From Flavobacteriales bacterium (GTDB lineage: Bacteria; Bacteroidota; Bacteroidia; Flavobacteriales_D; UBA2798), in contig JAIBBF010000024.1 of NCBI GenBank assembly GCA_019694795.1, positions 1-47,219 of the forward strand: a stretch of DNA of 47,219 nt. Direction: 5' to 3'. Shown piece after piece: positions 4,203-12,633 of the stretch (positions are counted from its first letter, which is position 1; every line of letters starts with the position of its first letter). The position numbers and the translations under genes are program-made. The notes under the pieces are model-generated. The model worked only from the letters and a program-made list of their open reading frames with translations, did not search any database and had not been told where the DNA came from.

Positions 4203-4394
4203 TATTCAGTTTGTAAATAAAAAGTGCAATACTGGATTGCAAAATCTCCACCTTGTTTTTTAAGCGTCAAAAGAAAGTGGGAACAAAACGCAATTTTGCT
4301 AAGTTACAAAAAGCACCTCCTTTCTATGCAAAAAGGAGTTATAATTTGATGAAAAGACCCAAAAGAATTGGGGAATATTAGAAAAGCATAAAAT

Positions 4395-4458
4395 GCAAAC
4401 TGCAATTGCAAACTGCGATTGCGATTGCGATTGCGATTGCGATTGCGAAGTGCGAAGT
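4395..4458. repeat. Mixed hexamer/heptamer array B (GCGATT, GCAAACT, GCGAAGT)
   Basis: The units are GCAAACT, GCAATT, GCAAACT, then five consecutive GCGATT hexamers (4415-4444) and two GCGAAGT heptamers, followed by GCGAATG as in array A. Hexamer units replace the heptamers of array A, which suggests that the array was rewritten or re-expanded after the duplication. Confidence 0.85.
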
Positions 4459-4737
4459 GCGAATGCATTTTTCTTTTTTTGGGCAGTAATAAATTTAAAT
4501 GATCGATGCTCATGAGTCAAGAAAAATTACTAGGTTTTCGACCTAAAATTTGCCGTTTCTTACATTTTCGAGGCGATGATTTTTTAACATTTTTCGTTGG
4601 TTTTAAATAATAATTTTACTGAAGAAAATTTGCTTTATATTGATAATGAATTGTTGAAGAATTTGAAGCTTAATAAAACAAGGCGAAATTTTAATTCACA
4701 AATTGATTAATTAAGGAGGAAAGGGAAAAGGAAAAAA
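4459..4737. repeat. Duplicated intergenic block, second copy (first copy 2032-2310)
   Basis: The two blocks align from GCGAATGCATTTTTC to the start of the G-rich arrays with only a few substitutions and one or two 1-bp indels. Differences include CAGCAAT against CAGTAAT, TTTGTCG against TTTGCCG, and AAGGTGA against AAGGCGA. By eye they are clearly more similar than the coding parts of the two modules. Confidence 0.85.
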
Positions 4738-5025
4738 AGGTAGTAGGTAGTGGGTAGTAAGGAAAAATAGGTAGTGGGTAGTGGGCAGAAAGGTAGAAGG
4801 GAAAATAGGTAGTGGGTAGTAAGGAAAATTGGGTAGTAGGCAGTGGGTAGTAAGGTAGAAGGGGGAGAGGGTTGTAGGCAGAAAGGTTGAAGGGAAAATA
4901 GGTAGTGGGTAGTGGGTAGTAAGGAAAAATAGGTAGTGGGTAGTGGGCAGAAAGGTAGAAGGGGGAATGGGAAGAGGGTAGAAGGAAAATTAGGTAGTAG
5001 GGAGAGGGTAAGTAGGAAAAAAAAG
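4738..5025. repeat. G-rich heptamer-type array D (GTAGTGG)
   Basis: About 290 bp of GTAGTGG heptamers are interrupted by AAGGAAAAATAG, GCAGAAAG and GTAGAAGG pieces. A stretch of at least 40 bp beginning AAGGAAAAATAGGTAGTGGG occurs at 4759 and again at 4921, so the array contains an internal duplication with a 162-bp offset. This likely explains why it is longer than array C. Confidence 0.85.
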
Positions 5026-5042
5026 AGGGATGAAATGGTTAT

Positions 5043-5097
5043 ACACACCGTGCGTCATTCAGAGCGGAGCGTGGAATCGGAGGATTGCAGGGCAGGG
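5043..5097. repeat. CGTCATTC-type interspersed repeat, copy 2
   Basis: It shares ACACACCGTG, CGTCATTCAGAGCGGAGCG and TGGAATCGGA with copy 1. It then diverges to GGATTGCAGGGCAGGGG where copy 1 has TTGTTGCCGGGTGGG. Confidence 0.75.
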
Positions 5098-5282
5098 GTG
5101 AACCACTAAGGCACAAGTACACGAAGTTGCACGAAGAAAATTAAAAGAAGAACACTAAGGGGTGGTAACATTTAGAGATAGCGGATACTGAGTTGCACTC
5201 AGTTTTAGTTAGGATTAAAATTTAAATAGCGTTTGTTGGCAAATAGAATATGTGTTTGAGGAATACCACTGAGGCACTGAGT

Positions 5283-8480: not shown

Positions 8481-9028
8481 AAAAATTAATTAAAGTATTA
8501 TTTCCAATATTTTATTTTGGTTTGAATTTTTGCAATGAGGTTTTTGCCCAACGGAATTTTTTGTCGCTGGATATCGGAAATAAATATTTATACAGCATCA
8601 ATTATGAACGTGATTTTAGTAGAGATGATTCATCAGGGAAATATGTAAATGGGCTTATCGGTTTTGGATTTGATCCACGGGTAAATCATTTATCATGCGT
8701 GTCATCTACCCTGAAGTTTAATCCATTCAATAAAGCGAAAAGGTTGGTTTTCGAATGTGGACTTATCCATGTGCTTAACCGGGATTATTATACCCGTAAG
8801 GAATTGGATTCAATTCAAGACTCCGATCCTTTATTTTTTAAACGGGTTAAAGTAAATCCGCATTATCAGCTGATGGGATTTTTATCCATGGGTTTTCAGT
8901 TTTTAAAACTCAAAAAATGTTCAATGGTTCTATTTGCAAATGTGTATTTAATAAATGATCGCAAGTATTATAATACATTTAGTGCCATCCCATATGGGGG
9001 AATTAACTTGTCTTTTCCCTTGAAATAG
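8477..9028 (+). CDS. Secreted, probably outer-membrane protein, second of a tandem pair
   Basis: 183 residues. The signal peptide runs to about NEVFAQ, followed by RNFLSLDIGNKYLYSINYER; it ends PYGGINLSFPLK. Shared elements with the preceding protein include STLKFNPF and DRKYYN near the C-terminus. The ATG overlaps the stop of the preceding gene (ATGA at 8477-8480), a sign of coupled translation and probably of joint function. The alternating strands suggest an outer-membrane barrel, but this is inference from sequence pattern. Confidence 0.82.
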   Translation: MKKLIKVLFPIFYFGLNFCNEVFAQRNFLSLDIGNKYLYSINYERDFSRDDSSGKYVNGLIGFGFDPRVNHLSCVSSTLKFNPFNKAKRLVFECGLIHVLNRDYYTRKELDSIQDSDPLFFKRVKVNPHYQLMGFLSMGFQFLKLKKCSMVLFANVYLINDRKYYNTFSAIPYGGINLSFPLK

Positions 9029-9273: not shown

Positions 9274-10677
9274 ATGAGTAATTACGACGTTATCATTATC
9301 GGATCTGGTCCCGGCGGATATGTTTCTGCCATTCGCTGTGCGCAACTGGGTATGAAAACTGCATTGATTGAACGCTACAATACACTGGGCGGAACCTGTT
9401 TAAATGTGGGTTGTATTCCATCTAAAGCGCTGCTCGATTCTTCGGAACATTTTCATAATGCAACACATACTTTTACCGAGCATGGAATTGATGTGAAGGA
9501 TGTAAAAGTGAACATCAAGCAAATGATTGCCCGTAAAAATGAAGTGGTGAAACAGACTGTTGGTGGTATTGATTTTCTGATGAAGAAAAATAAAATTGAT
9601 GTGTATCGCGGACATGGTTCTTTCGAATCGAAAACGCAGGTTTCCATTAAAGGAGATGATGGTAAAGTAACCACTATCGAAGGGAAAAACATCATCATAG
9701 CTACCGGATCAAAACCTTCTGCATTTCCCGGAATGGAAATCGATAAAAAACGCGTGATCACTTCCACCGAAGCGTTAAATCTCACCGAAGTTCCCAAACA
9801 CCTGATCGTTATTGGCGGTGGGGTAATCGGATTGGAATTAGGTTCGGTATATGCACGTTTGGGTGCAAAAGTTTCGGTAATTGAATTTGCTCCCGGAATT
9901 ATTTCTACCATGGATGGTACAATGGGTAAAGAATTACAGAAGTCACTGAAAAAATTAGGTTTCGAATTTTATTTCCAGCATAAAGTACTCAGCGCAAAAG
10001 GCAGTGCTAAAGAAGCAGTTGTTGTTGCAGAAGACAGCAAAGGAAATAAAGTGGAATTTAAAGGGGATTATTGCCTGGTTTCAGTGGGAAGAAAACCTTA
10101 TACCGAGAGCTTGGGTCTCGATAAAGCAGGTGTTCAATTAGACGAGCGTGGTCGCGTGGTAGTGAATGATCACTTGCAAACGAATGTCCCCCATATTTAC
10201 GCCATTGGCGATGTGGTACGCGGTGCAATGCTGGCGCACAAAGCCGAAGAAGAAGGCGTGTTTGTGGCGGAATATATTGCCGGACAAAAACCGCATATCA
10301 ATTACCTGCTTATTCCCGGTGTGGTTTATACCTGGCCGGAAGTAGCTTCAGTAGGTTATACCGAAGAGGAATTGAAAAAAGACGGAAAAAAATATAAGGT
10401 CGGTCAGTTCCCTTTCAAAGCTTCGGGTCGTGCCCGCGCTTCGATGGATACAGACGGACTTGTAAAAGTACTTGCCGACGAACAAACCGATGAAATCCTC
10501 GGTGTGCATATGATTGGTCCCCGCGCTGCCGATATGATTATGGAAGCTGTTGTGGCCATGGAATACCGCGCCTCCGCCGAAGACATATCCCGCATCTGCC
10601 ACGCACACCCGACCTTCACCGAATCCCTCAAAGAAGCCGCCCTCGACGCCACCGCTAAGCGGGCATTGCATATTTAA
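9274..10677 (+). CDS. lpdA: Dihydrolipoyl dehydrogenase
   Basis: 467 residues, the usual family length. It re-oxidises the dihydrolipoyl group of 2-oxoacid dehydrogenase complexes, passing electrons through FAD to NAD+. The FAD-binding GSGPGG lies at 10-15, the redox pair in GGTCLNVGC is Cys42/Cys47, the NAD-binding GGGVIGLELG is near residue 180, and the C-terminal HAHPTFTES carries the catalytic His445-Glu450 dyad. It stands alone behind its own promoter. The last 35-40 codons switch abruptly to C-ending codons (23 of 31 between 10561 and 10653), unlike the rest of the gene. The stop codon touches the heptamer array that follows. Confidence 0.97.
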   Translation: MSNYDVIIIGSGPGGYVSAIRCAQLGMKTALIERYNTLGGTCLNVGCIPSKALLDSSEHFHNATHTFTEHGIDVKDVKVNIKQMIARKNEVVKQTVGGIDFLMKKNKIDVYRGHGSFESKTQVSIKGDDGKVTTIEGKNIIIATGSKPSAFPGMEIDKKRVITSTEALNLTEVPKHLIVIGGGVIGLELGSVYARLGAKVSVIEFAPGIISTMDGTMGKELQKSLKKLGFEFYFQHKVLSAKGSAKEAVVVAEDSKGNKVEFKGDYCLVSVGRKPYTESLGLDKAGVQLDERGRVVVNDHLQTNVPHIYAIGDVVRGAMLAHKAEEEGVFVAEYIAGQKPHINYLLIPGVVYTWPEVASVGYTEEELKKDGKKYKVGQFPFKASGRARASMDTDGLVKVLADEQTDEILGVHMIGPRAADMIMEAVVAMEYRASAEDISRICHAHPTFTESLKEAALDATAKRALHI

Positions 10678-10830
10678 GGGGTAGAGGGTAGAGGGTAGAG
10701 GGTAGAGGGAAGAGGGAAGAAGGTAGAAGGCAGAGGGAAGAAGGTAGAGGGTAGAAGGGAAGAGGGTAGAAGGTAGAAGGGAAGAGGGAATATGGGCAGA
10801 AGGTTAGAGGGCAGAGAGTAGTGGGTTGAG
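10678..10830. repeat. G-rich heptamer array E (GTAGAGG / GAAGAGG)
   Basis: It starts directly after the lpdA stop codon. Eleven heptamers run in exact register from 10681 to 10757 (four GTAGAGG, then GAAGAGG, GAAGAAG, GTAGAAG, GCAGAGG, GAAGAAG, GTAGAGG, GTAGAAG). Further units follow with occasional 1-nt slips, and a GTAGTGG unit lies at 10818. The general unit is G-N-AGA-R-G. Confidence 0.9.
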
Positions 10831-10902
10831 TGGAAAATTAATATTTAATAAAATGCATTTGCCGGTTGAATTACTTGTGAAGGAAATTGAAGTTGTGGTT
10901 AT

Positions 10903-10910
10903 TAATTTTG
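10903..10910 (+). promoter_or_regulatory. Promoter -7 box upstream of the S23-type gene
   Basis: TAATTTTG matches TAnnTTTG. No TTG lies at the ideal 19-21 bp upstream, so only the -7 element is supported. Transcription from here could also read through the C-rich array into hemH-pabB-tilS, because no terminator lies between. Confidence 0.45.
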
Positions 10911-11029
10911 TGCATCATTTTTATTTGAATATTAACGATCAACCCTAGAAGTCCTTTTCATTTTTTTTCTGTTTTTACATTTCGGTGATTTTTTGCAGGA
11001 ATTATTTTTTTATTGCTAAAAATTTCGCT

Positions 11030-11425
11030 GTGGAAATCGAACTTGAAAAATCCCTTGAAAAATTATTGGTCTGGAATAAAACCAGAGCGCTGCGTATTCG
11101 TATTTCTCAATTGGTAAAGCGGATTCCAGATCAGGAGAAATTAAGATTATCCGATCAGATGATTCGTTGTTCTAGATCAATATCTGCAAATATTGCCGAA
11201 GGATATGGACGGTTTCACTTCCAGGATTCGATTCGCTTTTACATCATTGCAAGGGGATCATTAATTGAACTTTTAGATCATTTGTATGTTTGTATAGATG
11301 AAAATTTTATAACTCAAGAGACCTTCAACAATTTCCGCGAGGAAATTTATGATTGTTTAAAAATGCTAAATGGCTATATAAAATACGTTCGAAACCAAAT
11401 AAAGAAAAAACCCCCAACCACATAA
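11030..11425 (+). CDS. Four-helix-bundle protein, S23/IVP family
   Basis: 131 residues from the GTG at 11030; a GTG at 10985 would give 146, but the family usually has about ten residues before the L-x-VW motif, which fits 11030. LLVWNKTRALRIRISQLVKR forms the first helix, and MIRCSRSISANIAEGYGR is the family signature SIxxNIAEGxGR. It ends in a lysine-rich tail. Relatives are encoded in 23S rRNA intervening sequences, as free-standing genes, and as the Avd accessory proteins of diversity-generating retroelements. No 23S rRNA, reverse transcriptase or template repeat is seen here. The gene is enclosed by heptamer arrays on both sides. The biochemical role of the stand-alone members is not established to my knowledge. 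Confidence 0.85.
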   Translation: MEIELEKSLEKLLVWNKTRALRIRISQLVKRIPDQEKLRLSDQMIRCSRSISANIAEGYGRFHFQDSIRFYIIARGSLIELLDHLYVCIDENFITQETFNNFREEIYDCLKMLNGYIKYVRNQIKKKPPTT

Positions 11426-11433
11426 TTATGCCC

Positions 11434-11621
11434 AACACCCACTACCCACTACCCACAACCTAATCCCCACTACCCACTACCTAATCCCCACTACCCACTA
11501 CCTAATTCCCACTACCCACTACCTAATCCCCACTACCCACTACCTAATCCCCACTACCCACTACCTAATCCCCACTACCCACTACCTATTCCCCACTACC
11601 CACTACCTAATTCCCACTACC
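11434..11621. repeat. C-rich array F of 21-bp units (TAATCCC-CACTACC-CACTACC)
   Basis: Seven complete 21-bp units start at 11461, 11482, 11503, 11524, 11545, 11566 and 11587, followed by a two-thirds unit at 11608-11621. Each unit is three heptamers, and variants are limited to TAATTCC or TATTCCC in the first heptamer. Irregular CACTACC units precede the series from 11434. Units are directly adjacent with no spacers. The array ends 7 bp before the hemH ATG. Confidence 0.95.
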
Positions 11622-11628
11622 TACCCCA

Positions 11629-12633
11629 ATGAAAAACGCAATATTACTACTCAACCTCGGAACACCCGATTCAACGAAAACATCAGACGTGCGAAAATAC
11701 TTGCGCGAGTTTTTGATGGATGGTCGGGTGATTGATATTAATCCACTGGGAAGATGGTTTCTGGTGAATTTGATTATTGCACCCTTTCGCGGACCCAAAT
11801 CGGCGAAGGAATATAAAAAGTTGTGGACCAAAGACGGATCTCCATTGTTGTTGCATGGATTAAAAGTGAAGGAAGCGTTACAGAAAATGGTTCCCGAAAA
11901 TTACACGGTGGAGTTTGCCATGCGCTATCAGAATCCATCCATGGAGTCGGTGCTCGAACGAATGAGTAAAGCGAATTACGACCGCATCATTATCCTTCCG
12001 ATGTATCCGCAGAATGCTTCTTCCACTACCGGATCATCACTCGAAAAAGCAATGCGCATCATCAGTAAATGGTGGGTGATTCCGGAAATAAGAATGATTA
12101 GTCAGTATTACGATCATCCCAAATACATCGATGCATTTGTTGCACGCGGCAGAGAACACGATATCGCTTCGTACGATCATGTATTATTCAGCTTTCACGG
12201 AGTGCCGGAGCGGCATGTGGATAAGGTGTATACCGATAACCGTCCGTGTAGCGACCACCATTGTGAAGAAGGAATTACCGACGAAAATAAATTTTGTTAC
12301 AAAGCAACTTGTTACGAAACGGCAAAACGTATTGCACAACGATTGGAAATTAAAAATTATACTGTGGTTTTTCAGTCGCGCCTCGGTAAAGATCCATGGC
12401 TGGAGCCTTATGCCGATCAAACCATTATTCGTTTGGCTCAGGAAGGAAAAAAACGATTGCTGGTATTTTCTCCTGCCTTTGTTTCCGACTGCCTCGAAAC
12501 AACCGTAGAAATCGGCGAAGCTTATCAAGAATTATTCTGCGAACACGGTGGTGAAAAATTACAATTGGTGAACAGTTTAAACGATTCGCCATTGTGGGTG
12601 GAATGTTTAAAAGAGCTGGCATTGAATCCATGA
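11629..12633 (+). CDS. hemH: Ferrochelatase
   Basis: 334 residues. It inserts iron into protoporphyrin IX (or the coproporphyrin form) in haem synthesis. Markers are LLLNLGTPDSTKTSDVRKYL at the start, the catalytic histidine in SFHGVPERH (residue 190), QSRLGKDPWLEPY, and FSPAFVSDCLETTVEIGEAY with the conserved glutamate. Four cysteines sit at 207, 212, 223 and 228 in a CX4C-X10-CX4C pattern just after the active histidine and could bind a metal or cluster. The start ATG follows the C-rich repeat by 7 bp, so no ordinary leader is present. The stop overlaps the pabB start (ATGA). Confidence 0.96.
   Translation: MKNAILLLNLGTPDSTKTSDVRKYLREFLMDGRVIDINPLGRWFLVNLIIAPFRGPKSAKEYKKLWTKDGSPLLLHGLKVKEALQKMVPENYTVEFAMRYQNPSMESVLERMSKANYDRIIILPMYPQNASSTTGSSLEKAMRIISKWWVIPEIRMISQYYDHPKYIDAFVARGREHDIASYDHVLFSFHGVPERHVDKVYTDNRPCSDHHCEEGITDENKFCYKATCYETAKRIAQRLEIKNYTVVFQSRLGKDPWLEPYADQTIIRLAQEGKKRLLVFSPAFVSDCLETTVEIGEAYQELFCEHGGEKLQLVNSLNDSPLWVECLKELALNP

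Follow-up and report, generated by a model that had tools for sequence, protein, structure and literature searches.

Organisation of the lpdA–hemH interval

The window, by which we mean the whole 47,219-nucleotide stretch of DNA analysed, is contig C24 of a draft genome (G000) of 3.45 Mb in 124 contigs. An lpdA-like gene, apparently for a dihydrolipoamide dehydrogenase, occupies positions 9274–10677 of the + strand, ends with a TAA codon at 10675–10677, and has 79% DNA identity to its copy in a sister species of the same genus (G001); its name derives from the preliminary description of this DNA and from our inspection of the sequence. Immediately after the stop codon begins a G-rich heptad array, (GGGTAGA)n, that extends along the + strand from 10678 to 10830 and that we refer to as the upstream arm. 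Tandem Repeats Finder (TRF) places this array at 10679–10830 with period 7, as 21 degenerate copies of GGGTAGA with 76% matches. The downstream arm is a C-rich heptad array (11445–11621, + strand), formed by 8.4 copies of a 21-nt unit, CCCACTACCCACTACCTAATC, each of three heptads, with 96% matches. The next gene, hemH-like and encoding a ferrochelatase (11629–12633, + strand; 86% amino acid identity in G001), has its ATG at 11629, 7 bases past the end of the C-rich array.

The only gene between the two arrays is a member of the S23, or 23S rRNA-intervening-sequence-protein, family (11030–11425, + strand), encoding a four-helix-bundle protein of 131 residues. GTG at 11030 is its likely start, with GTG at 10985 also possible, and its stop codon is at 11423–11425. 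A possible Bacteroidota-like −7 promoter box, TAATTTTG (TAnnTTTG), can be picked out by eye at 10903–10910 on the same strand.

The two arms are complementary. Aligned against the reverse-complemented downstream arm, the upstream arm reaches a local score of 62 over 105 bp, whereas direct comparison gives 8 and the maximum in 500 shuffles is 44. When the whole interval is folded as RNA its ends pair, with an energy of −281 kcal/mol compared with −225 ± 9 for shuffled sequences (z = −6), and the predicted lpdA–hemH transcript would close on itself as one extended hairpin whose loop contains the S23 gene. No Rfam family matches anywhere in the window. The preliminary description had placed the two arrays and the single S23 gene as we find them and had recognised that the arrays are complementary; the upstream unit that it gave, GTAGTGG, is replaced by the degenerate GGGTAGA, and the fold that it proposed as a check gives paired ends.

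Other repeats are found in the window and elsewhere in the genome. Positions 1969–2500 and 4394–5100 of the window hold two copies, 88% identical, of a composite repeat with TGCGAAG heptamers, ∼270 bp of other sequence, GGTAGTG heptamers and a dispersed ∼60-bp repeat (GATTCCACGCTCCGCTCTGAATGACGC...), in that order. By eye we suspected an S23 remnant in these composites, and rejected it on an HMM E-value of about 0.9 and a DNA match of 65% that is confined to low-complexity sequence. A single pattern search located GGTAGTG arrays dispersed through the genome on contigs C41, C60, C74, C85, C92 and C100 (L016–L029), mostly with no S23 gene and often in tandem with the ∼60-bp repeat and with CTTCGTG/CCTTAGTGG arrays. 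The genome has a third S23 gene, on contig C1, that follows three direct repeats of 112 bp in which GAGAGCGA and TTCTGA hexamers occur (L069, ∼9510–9820); these stand directly after what appears by eye to be a tRNA gene cluster.

The S23 protein

Assignment of the encoded protein to the S23 family, which was originally encountered as a passenger of bacterial ribosomal RNA genes, is secure. It matches PF05635 with an E-value of 1.9e-31 and 108.8 bits (cut-off 33.8), over positions 1–106 of the 106 in the model, and TIGR02436 with an E-value of 1e-31. A weaker match, to PHROG 3206 (Avd protein of diversity-generating retroelements; E = 3e-6), is consistent with a common fold. The solved relatives 2gsc and 2rld each have five chains. 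S23 genes are under strong purifying selection, with dN/dS values of 0.03–0.14. The protein has no match in a library of defence systems, and S23 relatives are rare on viral contigs, where seven were found.

A connection with diversity-generating retroelements, raised in the preliminary description, finds no support in the genome itself, which is 99.9% complete and has no match to RVT_1, the reverse transcriptase family. Six S23-rich genomes of 99–100% completeness (G065, G077, G091, G033, G074 and G164) likewise have no RVT_1 gene. As these genomes are drafts, the absence is strong rather than absolute; we nevertheless reject a reverse transcriptase acting in trans as a general requirement.

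Inverted heptad arms recur at S23 genes

The anatomy seen in the window recurs around S23 genes at large. Our first sample came from relatives in the order to which the window belongs and consisted of 61 loci, the window being one of them, as stretches of at most 20 kb with S23 genes inside. Coverage by tandem arrays in these stretches is 135 bp/kb within 250 bp of an S23 gene, 29 bp/kb at 250–500 bp and about 4–13 bp/kb beyond 500 bp. Flanks of 300 bp were scored as inverted complements at a local score of at least 28, an arbitrary threshold that was applied alike to the controls. Inverted flanks were found for 42/65 S23 genes in this sample and for 8/718 control genes, direct flank similarity being rarer (12/65). 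A second, phylum-wide sample gave inverted flanks for 14 of 30 S23 genes. Pooled, the Bacteroidota sets give inverted flanks for 67 of 120 distinct S23 genes (56%) and direct flanks for 16 of 120, with the caveats that most genomes are drafts and that orthologous units are not fully independent; the other 44% have arms below detection at the threshold used. Among 1549 control genes the inverted fraction is 1.2%, rising to 2.7–4.1% where there are real spacers on both sides, and the ten top-scoring controls include two at known S23 positions that had been left unmasked (L219) and one that is itself an unrecognised S23 gene (L229:12246). An excess of arrays beside S23 genes, as expected in the preliminary description, is thus present, and it is specifically one of inverted arms.

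Within the arms, base identity at lags of 7, 14 and 21 is 57, 57 and 55%, whereas most other lags give about 26%. The period is not always 7: at some S23 units it is 8 or 26 (L115, L101, L108), the arms appearing as TGCTAATG arrays or as 26-mers with an internal GCCTTCGGC palindrome. A dispersed repeat of ∼35 bp (TTGTAAGGAATTGCTTTGAACCTGTCTTACTT) lies just 5′ of one S23 gene (L200, 3879–3913) and has many further copies on many contigs of G065, G077, G091 and G137.

The same arms are found across phyla. In a set of named GTDB genomes, drawn by one S23 motif and biased to the subfamily of that motif, inverted flanks are present for 24/36 S23 genes outside the Bacteroidota side and 28/53 within it, where Chlorobiota and Calditrichia loci are scored on the Bacteroidota side and a few loci have two S23 entries. 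Units of this anatomy occur in Chloroflexi, Verrucomicrobia, Nitrospirae, Cloacimonadota, Neomarinimicrobiota, Acidobacteria, Elusimicrobia and Deltaproteobacteria, and in a Parcubacterium. On cyanobacterial plasmids 8 of 12 S23 genes pass the threshold, and weaker arms are visible by eye at no fewer than two of the others.

Arm polarity and the match between protein and heptad

The arms have a defined polarity with respect to the S23 gene. In the direction of the gene, G is more frequent in the upstream arm than in the downstream one for 56 of 67 Bacteroidota units (p = 2e-8), and the window agrees; a second set of units shows the same in 51 of 53 cases (p = 3e-13). A common heptad word emerges clearly only in the AEGxG subfamily, whose upstream heptad, RGTTAWY, carries 5.6 bits of information compared with 3.9–4.2 in within-heptad permutations; for the mixed Bacteroidota set the consensus is not significant (1.82 as against 1.65 ± 0.08). 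The downstream form of the AEGxG heptad, RWTAACY, includes TAACTGA.

Similarity between S23 proteins predicts similarity between their heptads. Over 128 units the partial Mantel correlation is 0.33, a value reached in none of 300 permutations, with correction for G+C and with pairs above 0.65 in similarity, pairs from one genome and pairs within the Balneola-type genus removed. Unlike S23 genes that share a genome have a heptad similarity of 0.196, close to the background of 0.203, whereas like S23 genes (0.45–0.65) in different genomes average 0.34. Because heptads track the type of protein across genomes, and not the host, we regard gene and arms as a cognate unit. The simplest reading of this covariation of sequences is that each S23 protein recognises its own heptad, as would fit the proposal in the preliminary description that the protein acts on the heptamer; the match of protein type to heptad type is indirect evidence for it, with binding itself only inferred. 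Alternatively, gene and arms may have been inherited together by common descent, which would give the same covariation with no binding. That the arms are taken from the target site, as was hinted at by a junction (site B, below) at which end heptads overlap host codons, is a candidate that we set aside since heptads follow the protein across genomes.

Occupied, empty and replaced junctions

Evidence for movement comes from six genomes of a Balneola-type genus (G065, G077, G091, G102, G106 and G137), compared at four junctions of one operon of fatty-acid/phenylacetate type. At site D, between thiolase and PaaY-like genes, an S23 unit is present in G065, G137, G091 and G106, and G102 is empty, with a 3-bp gap. 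The S23 gene of G106 contains an in-frame stop and is 91–93% identical to the others while its flanks are only 65–73% identical; the element is thus more alike between hosts than its surroundings, which shows lateral transfer into this junction. At site B the unit is present in G102, G065 and G091, and G137 is empty despite flanks of 88% identity. This presence and absence is what is expected of a mobile element, gain and loss looking alike at sites B and D for as long as the species tree is unrooted. Replacement is seen at site A, where G137 carries a different S23 gene (61% identity) with different arms between flanks that are 92% identical to those of G065; G106 has no S23 unit there. Site C is occupied in G102, G091 and G077, lacks a unit in G106, and holds a heptad array with no gene in G137.

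No obvious target-site duplication is apparent by eye at the empty sites, whose spacers differ too widely to give a clear reading. Many S23 insertions are common to related species, for which vertical inheritance is possible. In the genome of the window, too, the thiolase/PaaY junction is occupied by an S23 unit (L068); its congener has the orthologue there, with arms that have changed on both sides. Of about 190 S23 loci, 23 have thiolase genes nearby (e.g. L059, L068, L079, L082, L086, L090, L200, L214), and this recurrence in different families suggests preferred or long-held junctions.

At the lpdA–hemH junction itself the sole syntenic relative is G001, in which lpdA and hemH also adjoin and the interval holds a GxxExxY (PDDEXK_3) gene (L120/L146, contig C37 of G001; E = 2.9e-40 to PF13366). 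This gene is enclosed by inverted octamer repeats of CACTAAG type, which run up to the lpdA stop on one side and to the hemH start on the other. Inverted flanks are present for 12 of the 23 GxxExxY genes of relatives that were tested, and the GxxExxY family appears to follow the same logic with an arm family of its own. In G002 the two host genes are not neighbours, and no clean empty lpdA–hemH site was found among the relatives. The suggestion in the preliminary description that the interval is a mobile unit is therefore upheld by presence, absence and replacement at other junctions of relatives and not by an empty site here; the repeat-generating activity that it also envisaged is not supported.

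Placement in operons and the choice between RNA and DNA

S23 units lie preferentially between co-directional genes (71/82, compared with 60% in controls), with 56 in the sense and 15 in the antisense orientation relative to both neighbours. On cyanobacterial plasmids (L358, L359, L362) they occur inside cas operons, in the orders cas6–S23–cas4 and cas10–S23–cmr3, and others lie between ribonucleotide reductase genes. A 23S rRNA IVP is listed among CRISPR-linked proteins (PMC10910872), and units of this kind may explain that entry. Operon-associated genes, for example those reported from cas clusters, may accordingly be passengers rather than functional parts.

Arms that are maintained for pairing in a sense transcript should favour GU over AC mismatches. 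The 267 mismatches in the arms show no such wobble signature (142 GU and 125 AC), so that pairing is not visibly kept for sense RNA. Four paired changes distinguish the site D arms of G065 and G091, and most comparisons have few or none. We conclude that DNA is no less likely than RNA to be the level at which the arms act, through end synapsis, a cruciform or a single-strand hairpin.

A model for the S23 unit and its alternatives

On balance we favour, as probable, the interpretation that the lpdA–hemH interval is a copy of a mobile unit resembling the intervening sequences (IVSs) of 23S rRNA, in which an S23 gene lies within an inverted repeat made of heptad arrays, its ends being bound by S23, and which has spread into intercistronic junctions. 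An S23 oligomer would bind several heptads in each arm, and the five chains of 2gsc and 2rld fit a ring capable of this. The protein might then hold the two ends of the unit together, whether as double-stranded, cruciform or hairpin DNA or as a hairpin in the transcript, and this would enable gene and arms to spread as one into other junctions. Since no catalytic domain is recognisable in S23, replication, recombination or RNA-processing enzymes of the host would have to supply the strand transfer, cutting or copying. Insertion between a stop and a start codon is perhaps tolerated through trimming of the mRNA hairpin, as happens in rRNA.

Several other explanations can be set against this model. 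The units could be resident regulatory modules that do not move, their arms forming an mRNA hairpin that S23 binds for processing or to control its own translation, and their spread being that of ordinary gene transfer. The predominance of the sense strand (56 of 82 units), the strong fold of the transcript, the purifying selection on S23 and the both-sided arm changes at site D all fit such a module, which we nonetheless judge unlikely: it does not predict the 15 units that are antisense to both neighbours, the lack of a GU bias or the scarcity of double changes in most paired comparisons, and it has difficulty with presence and absence, with replacement by an unlike S23 gene and with high-identity transfer into a single junction. 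A still simpler account, that the arrays arose by replication slippage in spacers where S23 genes merely happen to be located, draws on the abundance of heptamers, which outnumber all other long simple repeats in many prokaryotes (PMC4679880, PMC4692102), and on the GGTAGTG arrays that occur in this genome with no S23 gene. Slippage yields direct arrays, however, whereas S23 flanks are inverted about four times as often as they are direct and far more often than those of wide-spacer controls, and it predicts neither the match of protein to heptad nor the G-rich upstream polarity; we hold this account to be very improbable.

Two further proposals concern how copies are made. S23 units might also scatter their arms alone, as non-autonomous hairpins, in the manner of a REP/RAYT pair, so that lone arrays would be their offspring. 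Gene-less heptad arrays do stand beside S23-bearing junctions in the Balneola-type genus (L204, near 8780–8830), the TAACTGA repeat of Beggiatoaceae and Cyanobacteria (PMC4679880) corresponds to the downstream heptad RWTAACY, and six period-7 arrays were found in random stretches of S23-positive genomes compared with none in 465 kb of five S23-null genomes, although these counts of gene-less hairpins per genome are small numbers and S23 has no known transposase-like activity; we give this proposal as little weight as slippage. Least credible of all is copying of the hairpin RNA to new sites by a reverse transcriptase acting in trans with an Avd-like S23. The fold that S23 shares with Avd (PHROG 3206) and the location of the units in transcribed junctions, mostly in sense orientation, are in its favour, and the absence of RVT_1 from the genome of the window and from the six S23-rich drafts speaks against it.

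Returning to the mobile-unit model, it may extend well beyond this genome, and we put forward tentatively, as a possibility with somewhat less than even chances, that S23 genes constitute a phylum-spanning class of mobile unit, of which the IVSs of 23S rRNA are a special case, with subfamily-specific heptad words, no catalytic domain, spread of the gene and possibly of lone arrays, and a parallel in GxxExxY. Such a class would explain some of the heptanucleotide-repeat excess seen in bacteria. What recurs between ordinary genes in many bacterial phyla is a package with its own seven-letter word for each type of protein, whose appearance, disappearance and replacement resemble those of a mobile element.

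Comparison with known systems

The preliminary description held that no system of this kind is known, which overstates the case, as an S23 ORF within an inverted repeat is the established anatomy of the 23S rRNA IVS. IVSs with an S23 ORF are found in Leptospira and Coxiella (PMC4990558), and the idea that the ORF is required for IVS mobility was raised by Ralph and McClelland in 1993, as cited there. Like an IVS, the window unit has a single S23-family ORF between complementary sequences that make up a long inverted repeat within a transcribed region, the ORF lying in the loop, and S23 units share with IVSs a sporadic distribution and suspected horizontal spread. IVS RNA is cut out by RNase III; for the window unit a hairpin that closes its two ends is predicted. 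The window unit differs in lying between lpdA and hemH rather than inside a 23S rRNA gene, and S23 units generally occupy gaps between protein genes, in many copies per genome. Their arms are heptad arrays where the Coxiella IVS has a 28-bp stem, and, unlike in IVSs, each type of S23 protein has its own heptad; the gene is under strong purifying selection here, whereas the Coxiella ORF is decaying (PMC4990558).

With the Avd and bAvd proteins of diversity-generating retroelements S23 shares membership of one four-helix-bundle family; the reverse transcriptase of those elements is absent from this genome.

In REPtrons, which combine REP sequences with a RAYT gene, inverted copies of a short repeat, specific to the family and also found by itself, stand on either side of the gene. 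S23 units are alike in placing a gene between inverted, short, family-specific repeats that also stand alone, and unlike in that the repeat is a 7-nt tandem array instead of one imperfect palindrome and that the protein, with PF05635 as its only family match, is not a tyrosine transposase of the Y1/HUH kind.

Parallels to the arms themselves are found among published heptamer repeats. TAACTGA is a repeat adjacent to start codons in Beggiatoaceae, Cyanobacteria and some Bacteroidetes that was reported as unexplained (PMC4679880), and the G-rich heptamers of Nostoc and Xanthomonas have been studied as G-quadruplexes (PMC4692102). Like S23 arms, both have period 7, are intergenic and often abut start codons, and TAACTGA is the downstream-arm form of the heptad AGTTATC. 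A text search found no mention of S23 in either paper, and the open-access literature yielded none that links stand-alone S23 genes with inverted heptad arms; within that literature, accounts of IVSs and of heptamer repeats do not connect the two. The function and mobility of S23 and the IVS have been in question since about 1990, and slippage, to which heptamers were put down by Mrazek et al. in 2007 (as reported in PMC4679880), has since been the sole explanation for the excess of heptanucleotide repeats. The link between S23 and heptads, whose code from protein to heptad is open to simple binding assays, joins these two bodies of work and makes both questions testable.
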